Shown here in pieces: positions 1,682-26,407 of a stretch of DNA of 54,459 bases. The notes under the pieces are model-generated. The model did no database searches and was not told where the DNA came from. It saw nothing but the letters and a program-made list of their open reading frames with translations. Numbering within the stretch: the stretch's first letter is position 1; every line of letters begins with the position of its first letter. The DNA comes from Candidatus Harrisonbacteria bacterium RIFCSPLOWO2_01_FULL_44_18 (GTDB lineage Bacteria; Patescibacteriota; Minisyncoccia; UBA6257; WO2-44-18): contig MHJJ01000008.1 of the NCBI GenBank assembly GCA_001817915.1, positions 1-54,459 on the forward strand. Reading direction: 5' to 3'. Made by a program: the position numbers and the translations under genes.

Positions 1682-1794
1682 CGTTTGCTTCGCAAACGCG
1701 CAGACCTCGTTGACTAAACGCCGACTTCGCGGAATTTTTTCTGCGTTAATCCGCGTAAAGCCCGCGTTTTTCCGCGCATTGTACGAAGTACAAT
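1682..1794. mobile_element. ORF-less palindromic element (solo relative of the GxxExxY element flanks)
   Basis: Terminal hairpins CGTTTGC-ttc-GCAAACG and ATTGTAC-gaa-GTACAAT; interior rich in CCGCG/GACTT motifs shared with the rluA insert. Confidence 0.65.
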
Positions 1795-1828: not shown

Positions 1829-2665
1829 TCAAAACTTAACCACTTCTTCTAGGAAAACTGTGGATAACCCCGAGCCGTTCACCGTCAGCTTCAGATTCGT
1901 GGCGGCGCCGCTTACTTGAGCCCGACTCTTAATAATCTTGTTGGGGGGTAGGGATTCGATCGGCAATATAGAACATTGATATAAATCAAGAATCCGGGTT
2001 TCATTGCCGGCATAATTAATATTTTCGGCTAGTTTTAAACGGGCGTACTCAAGGCAAGTTCGCGCCAAAAAATAACTGGTCTTTTTGTGATAAAAATCTA
2101 AGTTGTTAAAACGAGTCAGAAAGGCCGAGGAGCCCAAAACCGCGGCTATGACTAAAATCAAAAGAGATAAAATTATTGAGGTGGTGATGGCGATAAATCC
2201 CATATTTTTAGAAGCGGACTGACGCGGATCAGTCGAGTTATAGAAGCGGATTGACGCGAATTCCGACTTCCTGGCCTTATCGTAAATACGACGCTTTATC
2301 TCTAATTTACGACTTCCAAAATTGATCAAAAATCCTAATTTATATCTAGCGCTTTCTAAGTAACGCCAGAATTGTCTATCGTCCTCTTTAGTAAGAAACG
2401 GTTTTACCTTTAGTTCGATAAGGATTTTATCTTCCACAATAATATCTGGCACATAAACACCGATTTTCTCATCTCTATGAAATATATTTATTTTCTTTTG
2501 ACTGTTTACTTTCAATCCTTTGTATTCTAATTCCTTAACTAAGGCCTTGTTAATCATTGATTCTTTAAAATCTCCTCCAAACTTCTTATATAATTCAAAG
2601 CAGGCCCCTCGAATAATGTAGCTGATATCCTCATATAATAATTTTTCTCCGGTTCTGGTTGCCAT
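1829..2665 (-). CDS. GxxExxY/PD-(D/E)XK-like domain fused in frame to a PilX/pseudopilin-like protein
   Basis: N-terminus LLYEDISYIIRGACFELYKKFGGDFKES...GVYVPDIIVEDKILIELKV...LGFLINFGSRKLEIKR; C-terminus starts SKNMGFIAITTSIILSLLILVIAAVLGSS. Confidence 0.75.
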   Translation of the reverse strand: MATRTGEKLLYEDISYIIRGACFELYKKFGGDFKESMINKALVKELEYKGLKVNSQKKINIFHRDEKIGVYVPDIIVEDKILIELKVKPFLTKEDDRQFWRYLESARYKLGFLINFGSRKLEIKRRIYDKARKSEFASIRFYNSTDPRQSASKNMGFIAITTSIILSLLILVIAAVLGSSAFLTRFNNLDFYHKKTSYFLARTCLEYARLKLAENINYAGNETRILDLYQCSILPIESLPPNKIIKSRAQVSGAATNLKLTVNGSGLSTVFLEEVVKF

Positions 2666-2720
2666 ACTTTCCGCGTGTATCCGCTTCTATAATTTCCCGC
2701 AGATCCGCGTATATCCGCTT

Positions 2721-3260
2721 CTATTTAACAATAATTGTGGCATCAATCGAGGTAGACGCGCTTGCGTTAAATAATGTCCCCGTAATTCGAAGGGCGCTTT
2801 GGCCGGAAAAATTCAAATGCTCAAAAATCAAGTTAGTGGTTGAAGCGTAGTTATTGGTCAAAGGAACGGGCAGTCCCCCGCCGCTTGATAATCTTACTGC
2901 TCCGCCATCGGCATCCACAACGAGCGGATTTTGCGCGAAATTTAATTTATTCACCGATAAAGTGTTGCCGGAACCGCCGAGCGGCGGACTATTTATCGTA
3001 TCGGCGCTATTTAAAATCCAGTCAAGCTTTTGAATCAAAAATCTTTGATTTTCATTTATTTCCCGCTGATTCCTTAGACGGCCGCTAAAATCAATCATCT
3101 GATAAACGACCGAAAGAGATACGGTAATAAAACCGGCAACAATGGCGGCATAAATCAACGTTTCAATTAACGTAAATCCCGTTGTTTTTCGTATATTCAT
3201 AAATTTTTCGCTCCGACTTTGTCGAGAGTCCTCGGTGAAATCGGGATATTTCGTAGCCAT
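2721..3260 (-). CDS. Prepilin-type pseudopilin (PulJ/PilW-like)
   Basis: TTGFTLIETLIYAAIVAGFITVSLSVVYQ; likely native start at MNIRKTTG. Confidence 0.8.
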   Translation of the reverse strand: MATKYPDFTEDSRQSRSEKFMNIRKTTGFTLIETLIYAAIVAGFITVSLSVVYQMIDFSGRLRNQREINENQRFLIQKLDWILNSADTINSPPLGGSGNTLSVNKLNFAQNPLVVDADGGAVRLSSGGGLPVPLTNNYASTTNLIFEHLNFSGQSALRITGTLFNASASTSIDATIIVK

Positions 3261-20002: not shown

Positions 20003-22240
20003 TTACTTTTTGAGCAATTCCTTGAATATGCTGCTGGGTATTTTGATTTTGCTTTGAACGGCCATTTCTTTAAGTTTTTCCTTGCCGCGCCGCTGTTTTT
20101 TCCAGAGCTTCATTTTGCGAGTCCGGTCGCCGCCGGTTTTACCGAAATTGCCAAGAAGTTTTTTGAACGCCGGAATAGTCTCGCGCGCTATAATCCTCCC
20201 GCCAGCAACCGCCTGAACTGGCTGAACAAACAACTGCTTAGGTAAAAGCTCTTTGAGTTTTTCTACGGTAAACCGCGCTTCTCTTTCAATGTCTTTTTTG
20301 GGCAAAATTCTTGTTAAACCGGGCACTAAATGACCGGCCACCAGCACTTCCAGCTTATCAACTTCCGCCTTTTCATAACCGATGATCTCGTAATGAAATG
20401 AAGCAAACCCTTGCGAAACCGATTTTAATTTATCATCTAAATCGCGGATTAAATCAGCCAGGGGTAATTTTGTCGTAACCATAATTTTATTGCTTAAAGT
20501 TTTCGTTTCTAATTCAGAGAAGCGAAAAATTTCTTTGAGTTGCAAAATGGCGCCTAAAAATTGCGGCGGCGCGACAATTTCTATTTTTGTTATCGGCTCT
20601 TCGGCAACGCCATAGTCATTAGGAAAATCTTTGGGGTTGGTAATGATTTCCCCATCAACTTTGTAAGCAACGGACGGAAAACTATGTACGGTTTCTATTT
20701 GAAATTCTCTCGCCAATCTTTCGGCAGCGATCTCAAAATGCAGCCGTCCTAAAAATCCGCCCTTAAATCCTCTTCCTAAAACTTCGCTCGCATCGGGCTC
20801 AAAAGTCAGCGATGAATCGGTAAGACGCAATTTTCCGAGCGCCTGCTTGAATTTATCGTATTGATCGCTTTCCGCGGGATAAAAAGAAACGAAAACCACC
20901 GGCTGTGGCTCCACATAGCCAGAAAGGGCTACGCACATCCGCGGCCCGCAGATTGTGTCACCGATTTTCAGTTTATTGGGATCTTTAATGCCGGTCGCGA
21001 TGTAACCTATTTCGCCCGTCTTTAACCCGATCGAGGGTTTTAATTGAGGGATGAAATAGCCAATCTCCTTTGCTTTTACCCGAGTCTTGGTTGCCATAAG
21101 TTCGATATCGCCGTTAGTCTGAAATTCTCCGTCAAAAACCCTCACAAACGCCATTATCCCCTTGTGCTCGTCATAAAGAGAATCAAAAATGAGCGCTCTG
21201 TTAATTCCTGCCTCTGATTCCCGCGGGGACGAAACTTTTTTAACAATTGTTTCTAAAAGTTCCGGCACCCCTTCGCCGCTACGGCCGGAAACTTTCAAAA
21301 TCTCGTCTATGCCGACCCCCAGAAGCTCGGCCAAATCTAATACGGCGTCCCGAATTTGCTCTGACTGAGCAATATCAATTTTATTAACCGCTCCGATTAT
21401 TTTTAGTCCCGCTCTTTTGGCATTTTCAAAATTAGCCAATGTCTGCGCCTGAATACCTTGCGTCGCGTCAACTAACAAAACCGCTCCCTCAACCGCCGCC
21501 AGCGCCCGGGAAACTTCATAAGAAAAATCAGAGTGGCCGGGAGTATCTATTAAGTTCAGAATACATTCTGAACTCGCGGACTTCGCGGACTCAAGCGGAC
21601 TTCGCGGACTTTTCCCGTTGCGCGCTTTATCAAAAATAAAGCGTTCTATTTCAACATCTTTCCCGCCAAAATTAACTAAAAGCCCTATTTTATAATCTGA
21701 ACCTTTTAGATATGTTTGTAATTGTATTTTCTCTTTTTTACCGATAAAAGGCAGAGATTTTATTTCCACAATAACTTTATTTTCAATAATAAAATCTGGT
21801 CTGTACACACCCACTTTCTTATCTTCATGAAAGATATCTATAATTTTTTCTTTTTCAAAACTCAAATCGCTTTTTTTAAATTCCTGTTCTAAAATATTTT
21901 GATAAATATTCTCTTTGTGTCCTAGGCCAACGGCTTTTCTAACAGCAAAAAATACGCCACGAATCTTATAGGTTAACTCTTCATATAAGAGCTTGCTTTC
22001 TATTTTTTCCGCGTTGTCCGCTTCCTGTCCGCATTGTCCGCGGTCAGGATGATAAATCATCCTGACAGGCGCCATTTTAATAGTAATTCCTCGTTCTCTT
22101 TCAAGCTCAAGTTGATCTAAATACTGCGGTTTCATCAGTCGTTTTTCTATAGTTCCGGTAATTTCCAAAAGCCGATCCGCTAAAGTTGATTTTCCGTGGT
22201 CAATGTGGGCAATGATTACAAAATTGCGTATGTTATCCAT
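20003..22240 (-). CDS. lepA: Elongation factor 4 (LepA) with an in-frame GxxExxY/PD-(D/E)XK-like insertion
   Basis: AHIDHGKSTLADRLL, ERERGITIK ... LNLIDTPGHSDFSYEVSRALAAVEGAVLLVDATQG, NKIDIA; C-terminal FASFHYEIIGYEKAEVDKLEVLVAGH, FGKTGGDRTRKMKLWKKQRRGKEKLKEMA. Confidence 0.95.
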   Translation of the reverse strand: MDNIRNFVIIAHIDHGKSTLADRLLEITGTIEKRLMKPQYLDQLELERERGITIKMAPVRMIYHPDRGQCGQEADNAEKIESKLLYEELTYKIRGVFFAVRKAVGLGHKENIYQNILEQEFKKSDLSFEKEKIIDIFHEDKKVGVYRPDFIIENKVIVEIKSLPFIGKKEKIQLQTYLKGSDYKIGLLVNFGGKDVEIERFIFDKARNGKSPRSPLESAKSASSECILNLIDTPGHSDFSYEVSRALAAVEGAVLLVDATQGIQAQTLANFENAKRAGLKIIGAVNKIDIAQSEQIRDAVLDLAELLGVGIDEILKVSGRSGEGVPELLETIVKKVSSPRESEAGINRALIFDSLYDEHKGIMAFVRVFDGEFQTNGDIELMATKTRVKAKEIGYFIPQLKPSIGLKTGEIGYIATGIKDPNKLKIGDTICGPRMCVALSGYVEPQPVVFVSFYPAESDQYDKFKQALGKLRLTDSSLTFEPDASEVLGRGFKGGFLGRLHFEIAAERLAREFQIETVHSFPSVAYKVDGEIITNPKDFPNDYGVAEEPITKIEIVAPPQFLGAILQLKEIFRFSELETKTLSNKIMVTTKLPLADLIRDLDDKLKSVSQGFASFHYEIIGYEKAEVDKLEVLVAGHLVPGLTRILPKKDIEREARFTVEKLKELLPKQLFVQPVQAVAGGRIIARETIPAFKKLLGNFGKTGGDRTRKMKLWKKQRRGKEKLKEMAVQSKIKIPSSIFKELLKK
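21553..22066 (-). mobile_element. GxxExxY nuclease-like mobile element within lepA
   Basis: Junction hairpins AGTTCAGAAT-ac-ATTCTGAACT (21553-21574) and GTCAGGATGAT-aa-ATCATCCTGAC (22043-22066); inner CGCGGACTTCGCGGACT / GTCCGCATTGTCCGCGG; ORF motifs GHKENIY, RPDFIIENKVIVEIK. Confidence 0.75.
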
Positions 22241-25384: not shown

Positions 25385-26407
25385 ATGGAGTTTATTTCTG
25401 AACAATCTAATGAGCGCTTGGATAAATTTTTAGCCGCTCACTTAATAAAATTTTCCCGCTCGCGATTCCAGCGGATTATTAAAAACGCGGCCATTAAAGT
25501 GAACGGTCATTTTGTCACCAAATCGGGGTTTAAACTTAAAAAAGGCGACCGAATTGTCATACCGGAAGAAGAAATTCTAAAACCTTCTCAAGCCAAAGAA
25601 TTCACTGTTCAGCCGGAGCCGAATATCCCTCTTAATGTGGTTTATGAAGATGATGACATTGTTGTAATAAACAAACCCGCGGGACTTTTAACTCATCCAA
25701 CTCTAAGCCAGCCGTGCCATACATTAGTAAACGCTTTAGTCGCGAGATACCCGGAGATTATAAAAGTCGGCGAAAGTCCTTTGCGGCCGGGCATAGTTCA
25801 TCGCTTAGACAAAGACACTTCTGGCCTTTTGGTCGCGGCAAAAAACCAAAAAGCATTTTTGTTTCTTAAAGAACAATTTTTGAAACGGGAAGTAACCAAA
25901 AAATACCTCGCGCTGGTTGAGGGGGCGCCAAAAGAAAAAGAAGGCGTGATTGAATACGATATTCGGCCGTCAAAAAAATTTCGCTTAAAGAAGGTGGCGG
26001 TTCAACGCGTTGAACCGGCAAAAAAATCAACGCGCTCCGCCAAAACCAGCTACAAAGTCCGCCAAACTTTTGAGGACCGGTTCGCCCTGCTGGAAGTCGC
26101 GCCGCTCACCGGCCGCACTCACCAAATAAGAGTGCATCTTTCCGCCATTGGCCATCCCATTCTTGGAGACCGTTTGTACGGCTCCAAGACGCGGACTTAC
26201 GCCGACTTAACGCAGACCAGCGCAGAAGAACCTCCGCGTAAATCCGCGTATCCTACGCATGAGTCCGCGGTGCCGCTCAAGCGACACTTCCTGCATGCTT
26301 ATTACTTGAAATTCATCGCCCCGAATAGCACGCCGCTGGCATTAGAAATAGAGTTGCCGGAAGATTTACAAACCATTCTCCAATCTATTGGTTTCCGAAA
26401 CCAATAG
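25385..26407 (+). CDS. RluA-family pseudouridine synthase with an in-frame palindromic insert
   Basis: S4 domain; RPGIVHRLDKDTSGLLVAAK; GRTHQIRVHLSAIGHPILGDRLYG; insert TRTYADLTQTSAEEPPRKSAYPTHESA. Confidence 0.92.
   Translation: MEFISEQSNERLDKFLAAHLIKFSRSRFQRIIKNAAIKVNGHFVTKSGFKLKKGDRIVIPEEEILKPSQAKEFTVQPEPNIPLNVVYEDDDIVVINKPAGLLTHPTLSQPCHTLVNALVARYPEIIKVGESPLRPGIVHRLDKDTSGLLVAAKNQKAFLFLKEQFLKREVTKKYLALVEGAPKEKEGVIEYDIRPSKKFRLKKVAVQRVEPAKKSTRSAKTSYKVRQTFEDRFALLEVAPLTGRTHQIRVHLSAIGHPILGDRLYGSKTRTYADLTQTSAEEPPRKSAYPTHESAVPLKRHFLHAYYLKFIAPNSTPLALEIELPEDLQTILQSIGFRNQ
26162..26282 (+). mobile_element. ORF-less palindromic element inside the rluA-family gene
   Basis: Left hairpin CTTGGAG(a)CCGT-ttgt-ACGGCTCCAAG; interior ACGCGGACTTACGCCGACTTAACGCAGACC...CCGCGTAAATCCGCG. 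Confidence 0.65.

Follow-up and report, generated by a model that had tools for sequence, protein, structure and literature searches.

It might be asked how the GTPase domain of LepA (elongation factor 4), a conserved translation factor, came to contain a nuclease-like domain in Candidatus Harrisonbacteria bacterium RIFCSPLOWO2_01_FULL_44_18, and what kind of genetic element resides there. The window, i.e. the whole stretch of 54,459 nucleotides that was analysed, carries on its reverse strand an open reading frame of 745 codons without internal stop, which matches the LepA profile TIGR01393 with 607 bits (Table 1). Between VRMIY and CILNLIDTPGH this frame includes a domain that matches the entire TIGR04256 (GxxExxY) model (aa 88-202, model positions 1-116 of 116; E 3.9e-31, 107.8 bits against a cut-off of 35) as well as PF13366 (PDDEXK_3; E 7.7e-30, 104 bits against a cut-off of 22). 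GITIKM and LIDTPGH are separated by 173 aa here and by 17 or 13 aa in the nearest relatives, a net gain of about 156-160 aa (about 468 nt). An earlier note on this DNA had recognised the extra domain and the uninterrupted frame, both correctly, and the bounds it gave (21553-22066) coincide with the outer limits of two hairpins, each spanning one junction. It overlooked the repeat arms, the junction palindromes, a second GxxExxY element and in-frame mini-elements, i.e. arms without nuclease, and it took for a single oddity what belongs to a widespread family of elements.

Table 1. Positions in the window of the chimeric lepA gene, the parts of its insert and related elements
Feature	Position	Strand	Remarks
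Chimeric lepA CDS (elongation factor 4), 745 aa	20003..22240	-	ORF list and profile matches; single copy
Element inserted in lepA (residues 64-225)	21566..22051	-	delimited against LepA relatives that lack it; ends accurate to within a few codons
Left junction palindrome GTCAGGATGAT-tt-ATCATCCTGAC	22043..22066	-	outer arm is lepA coding DNA (PVRMI)
Left repeat arm, tandem CGCGGACAA-like units	22008..22042	-	encodes predicted disordered linker
GxxExxY PD-(D/E)XK nuclease domain	21635..21979	-	E27, D66, E76, K78, Q90 and Y94 (domain numbering) intact
Right repeat arm, inverted units TCCGCGAAG	21575..21610	-	encodes predicted disordered linker
Right junction palindrome AGTTCAGAAT-gt-ATTCTGAACT	21553..21574	-	outer arm is lepA coding DNA (ILNL)
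In-frame mini-element (arms, no nuclease)	26189..26269	+	in RluA-family pseudouridine synthase gene 25385-26407; absent in relatives such as G013
Second GxxExxY element	2206..2724	-	domain 2288-2626; inverted arms 2206-2261 and 2670-2724; extends a pilin-like ORF at its N-terminus
Probable mini-element with the same arm units	1697..1778	-	approximate ends; between two pilin-like genes

Trivial explanations can be dismissed. Similar chimeras occur in many independent assemblies, which makes an assembly error very unlikely, and since a profile search of the 752-kb genome found only one LepA_C locus, the second intact lepA that the earlier note had considered does not exist. As a separate observation, the lepA genes of one family (f26, four genomes) all contain two in-frame TGA codons, possibly a sign of TGA reassignment or readthrough.

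By sequence the inserted domain belongs to the GxxExxY family; its architecture does not. It shows the motifs GHKENIY and PDF...VEIK with the invariant residues E27, D66, E76 and K78, but unlike the stand-alone GxxExxY protein of about 125 aa it is embedded in the 745-aa frame and has no stop codon of its own. AlphaFold2 modelled the domain alone (123 aa) with a pLDDT of 95.8, and a fold search with this model returned Cas4 SSO0001 (E 4e-4), lambda exonuclease-type enzymes and MGME1 as the nearest folds; a profile search of PDB sequences gave weak matches alone, among them T7 endonuclease I at a non-significant E of 0.12. In the model of the complete chimera, a check that the earlier note had proposed, LepA keeps its fold around the insert domain, which is folded separately. 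The insert is bordered by LepA strands 57-63 and 226-232 and connected through two linkers with pLDDT below 50 (aa 67-83 and 207-223), which coincide with the repeat arms.

Comparison with other in-frame copies of the domain indicated that it is maintained. The catalytic E/E/K residues were kept in 67 of 67 copies and the D in 66 of 67, Q90 and Y94 were likewise conserved, and dN/dS in close pairs ranged from 0.07 to 0.26 with a median of 0.18. The kept residues together with the low dN/dS imply that selection maintains a nuclease-like protein inside its hosts, i.e. that the in-frame domain is under purifying selection.

Is the insert present in the mature protein? The earlier note had allowed for translation as part of LepA, for internal expression and for removal at the RNA or protein level. 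Internal expression of this copy is unlikely, as the stretch from the host boundary to the domain has no in-frame ATG; 45% of the in-frame clade members, as against 92% of the stand-alone genes, have an ATG in the 24 codons upstream of the domain. Removal found no support either. Pfam and NCBIfam scans of the chimera detected no Hint/intein domain, and no group I or group II intron family was among the Rfam matches up to E=1, the sub-threshold ones belonging to unrelated families far below their gathering scores; an intein or intron identity was rejected on these grounds. It might still be supposed that the insert is excised from mRNA or protein, or bypassed by the ribosome, to leave a normal mature LepA. 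Strong predicted RNA hairpins do border the insert, and Magnusiomyces mitochondria are known to have hairpin elements that ribosomes skip (cited in PMC6649704). Against this, every LepA and RecG insert examined is open in frame through both arms (18 in LepA), which would be needless if they were skipped, the modelled LepA fold is intact around the insert, and the arms encode disordered linkers in the chimera model. We regard removal or skipping as very unlikely.

The history of the insert is not that of its host. The LepA site is empty in four sister genera of the same family, and in RecG, which carries the domain in other genomes, one genus includes an occupied genome and two empty ones; occupancy is thus patchy even inside genera. 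Among 14 LepA hosts the identities of insert and host were uncorrelated (r=0.05, Mantel about 0.32), with inserts up to 85% identical in hosts that are 61% identical and 80% identical in hosts that are 50% identical. Distant hosts may have similar inserts (L016 and L128, 85%) and close hosts dissimilar ones (L128 and L156). Over 29 hosts the insert data rejected the LepA host topology (dlnL 415, AU p=0.0014). The suspicion in the earlier note that LepA hosts a mobile gene is borne out by the empty sites together with the conflict between the insert and host trees. An old fusion of LepA with GxxExxY, vertically inherited and serving some LepA-related function, would fit the occurrence of the domain at the same LepA position across many lineages of one order and beyond, but it is contradicted by the empty closest relatives, by the tree conflict and by the presence of the same GxxExxY clade in RecG, GatB, LeuRS, copper P-type ATPase and others; of all explanations we consider it the least probable, and as an ancient event it was rejected. 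Spread by recombination of lepA segments was also ruled out, because the flanks were no more alike in pairs with similar inserts than in other pairs. Nor does this lack of co-transfer or co-conversion of the flanks fit classical homing by homologous repair.

The LepA insert has numerous counterparts. About 30 LepA and about 30 RecG genes of Paceibacteria carry a GxxExxY domain, in one loop each: before the G3 motif in LepA and before the TATPIPR motif in RecG. Of the 244 genomes of the order, 84 had TIGR04256 matches, frequently within reading frames of 275-935 aa. A scan of GTDB species genomes returned 246 relatives; the best 80 loci comprised 85 domain copies, 61 of them in large reading frames, mostly LepA or RecG, a proportion biased towards in-frame copies because the scan was seeded with such copies. 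A tree to which 50 stand-alone copies from the order survey had been added contained one clade of 69 sequences (SH-aLRT 94), 67 of them in frame and two stand-alone; the tree is based on 123 columns and resolves few deep forks. Part of this in-frame bias reflects selection, since it is in-frame copies that a host can survive. Other hosts include LeuRS, GatB, a copper P-type ATPase and RseP; inspection by eye adds glycosyltransferases, an O-antigen-ligase-like protein and a subunit of transketolase. Independently, another GxxExxY clade, distant from the first, has entered the same RecG loop (four cases), RseP and GatB. The relatives that have names in public records include Candidatus Jorgensenbacteria, Wolfebacteria, Liptonbacteria, Kaiserbacteria and Moranbacteria; no viral contig carrying the element was found among those searched. 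Two further observations concern single loci. One reading frame of 862 aa, glycosyltransferase-like by eye, contains two GxxExxY domains of different clades (L078, G135:C10), and stand-alone GxxExxY genes lie in ribosomal operons, between rpsG and fusA (L002, G000:C5) and between nusG and rplK (L006, G000:C14).

On the coding strand the insert region has the order lepA GTCAGGATGAT, a 2-nt loop, ATCATCCTGAC, the CGCGGACAA-like arm, the nuclease domain, the arm of inverted units, AGTTCAGAAT, 2 nt and lepA ATTCTGAACT. The inner half of the left palindrome, ATCATCCTGAC, is an inverted copy of the host sequence GTCAGGATGAT and stops exactly where the repeat arm starts. The predicted RNA fold of the insert consists of a hairpin, a long arm-to-arm stem around the ORF and another hairpin (z=-7.0). 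Inverted arms flank GxxExxY in every class of element, stand-alone genes included, with p from 1e-4 to 7e-45. At the LepA site both ends of the element match the complement of the neighbouring host DNA and change along with it from locus to locus (18 loci; 0 of 20000 permutations on each side). Of the LepA insertions, 15 of 28 had a left palindrome of 8 bp or more, as did 9 of 25 in RecG, 2 of 10 in other hosts and the one case at LepA site 2 (L039, the only true second-site insertion in LepA), compared with a null expectation of 1.6%. In a focused test these palindromes mostly abutted the first arm unit, also beyond LepA site 1, i.e. in RecG, where the element boundaries are ambiguous by a few codons, at LepA site 2, in GatB and in one further host. 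A clear right palindrome is confined to the LepA site, and a wide-window scan did not find junction palindromes in stand-alone elements or in most other hosts, so that they are not a universal feature of GxxExxY elements.

We read these palindromes as the trace of a host-templated insertion step, such as priming by fold-back and a subsequent switch to the arm, although the restriction of the right palindrome to LepA and the absence of any palindrome in most other hosts mean that fold-back copying may not be a general rule. Alternatively, the palindromes may be selected or maintained, as mRNA hairpins or by quasi-palindrome correction at replication, and would then not be products of insertion. 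Their great strength on both sides of the LepA insert, which extends to mini-elements made of unrelated units, and their weakness or absence at most other hosts agree with maintenance. The left palindromes found in RecG and GatB, at LepA site 2 and in a further host do not, for they end at the start of the arm, as expected if they were made at insertion. We think maintenance unlikely, if less so than the other alternatives.

Besides the RluA-family copy, which is missing from relatives such as G013, in-frame mini-elements were seen by eye in the translations of ValRS, IF-2, GluRS and MurB of the same genome, and the arm pattern had 52 matches in this genome as against four for a reversed control. 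The mini-element of IF-2 (L272, G000:C4:20128-20143) lies in frame immediately ahead of the G3 motif DTPGH, a position that corresponds structurally to the LepA site. In eight other lepA genes the same loop (site 1) contains small inserts of unrelated repeats such as AAATTCC, several of them with strong right junction palindromes copied from the host. The latter suggest that several element families share an insertion route. It is conceivable that the nuclease is merely cargo that is useful to the cell in repair or defence and is exchanged horizontally, while the arms are moved by other machinery such as template switching at replication and GxxExxY does not drive the process. A cellular function would equally account for the purifying selection on the domain, and the arm-only copies and the minis of unrelated units in the LepA loop mean that insertion there needs no adjacent nuclease gene. 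On the other hand, the distribution is patchy within genera, none of the PADLOC models matched the element, so that an assignment as an anti-phage defence gene fails, and GxxExxY is repeatedly accompanied by inverted arms in every context. A role as cargo appears improbable to us, though far less so than skipping or an old fusion.

We consider it the best explanation, with a probability of roughly two in three, that the insert is a mobile element with a nuclease gene and palindromic arms that has become specialised to reside in frame within coding sequences of Paceibacteria. Its layout is host, inverted copy of the flank, arm, nuclease ORF without start or stop of its own, inverted arm, in LepA another inverted flank copy, and host. 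Such an element would be translated as an extra domain that stands out, on two flexible arm-encoded linkers, from a beta-hairpin loop at the surface of the LepA GTPase domain, an arrangement which would allow the host protein to survive. It spreads horizontally between species, mostly to the same few loops of LepA and RecG, and arm-made copies without nuclease are found elsewhere. Movement may start with a break or a structure-specific cut made by the conserved nuclease; at each insertion, before the arm is joined, 8-12 nt of the host flank would be copied, either through fold-back (snap-back) synthesis or because a hairpin end is opened off-centre.

Several known systems resemble this element in part. 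Rickettsia palindromic elements (RPEs) are about 100-150 bp long and carry no enzyme. They too are short palindromic mobile DNAs located in frame in many unrelated protein genes, the extra peptide being tolerated at surface sites (PMC10969869, PMC6649704). In contrast, the full-length element described here possesses a conserved nuclease domain, arms of tandem units and junctions that copy the host flank; it is palindromic and in frame like an RPE, but only the minis are small and non-enzymatic. As phylum and repeat units differ as well, we do not file it among the RPEs. The coding palindromes of Nematomorpha mitochondria are likewise inverted repeats within translated sequence, but they are single perfect repeats with no encoded enzyme or known mobility (PMC6649704). 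LAGLIDADG introns have been described in rRNA genes of CPR bacteria (PMC11270868). With the homing endonuclease genes of inteins and group I introns the element shares a nuclease gene in a conserved host gene, occupation of the same site in distant species and a horizontal history. It differs from them in having no self-splicing part, so that the nuclease probably stays in the mature protein, in its RecB/Cas4-like PD-(D/E)XK nuclease and in that flank co-conversion was not detected. Bacterial MITEs and REP elements are likewise small and built on inverted repeats, and non-autonomous copies of them are dispersed through genes and spacers, but the present element is not accompanied by a transposase of a known class, and its full-length form codes for GxxExxY, which in one clade is almost invariably in frame. 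A search of mainly open-access literature, by the names of the family and for palindromic elements lying in frame in CPR bacteria, yielded no earlier description.

More tentatively, the element could represent a separate selfish class: homing-like, with an in-frame nuclease and neither intron nor intein, translated by the host, bringing its own arm linkers and having host-specific palindromic ends that are remade at each insertion and that the nuclease recognises or cuts. We rate this as possible, at somewhat less than even odds. Selfish genes in conserved proteins are mainly known as inteins and introns, which remove themselves; in this case a nuclease domain apparently stays in the mature host protein and nevertheless spreads between species. 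If this is true, the element would be a nuclease-bearing form of RPE-like in-frame palindromic elements and would provide a way for core proteins to acquire new domains. It would also offer a concrete hypothesis for the function of the GxxExxY proteins, a common family, and the host-copied junction palindromes are a testable signature of the insertion chemistry.
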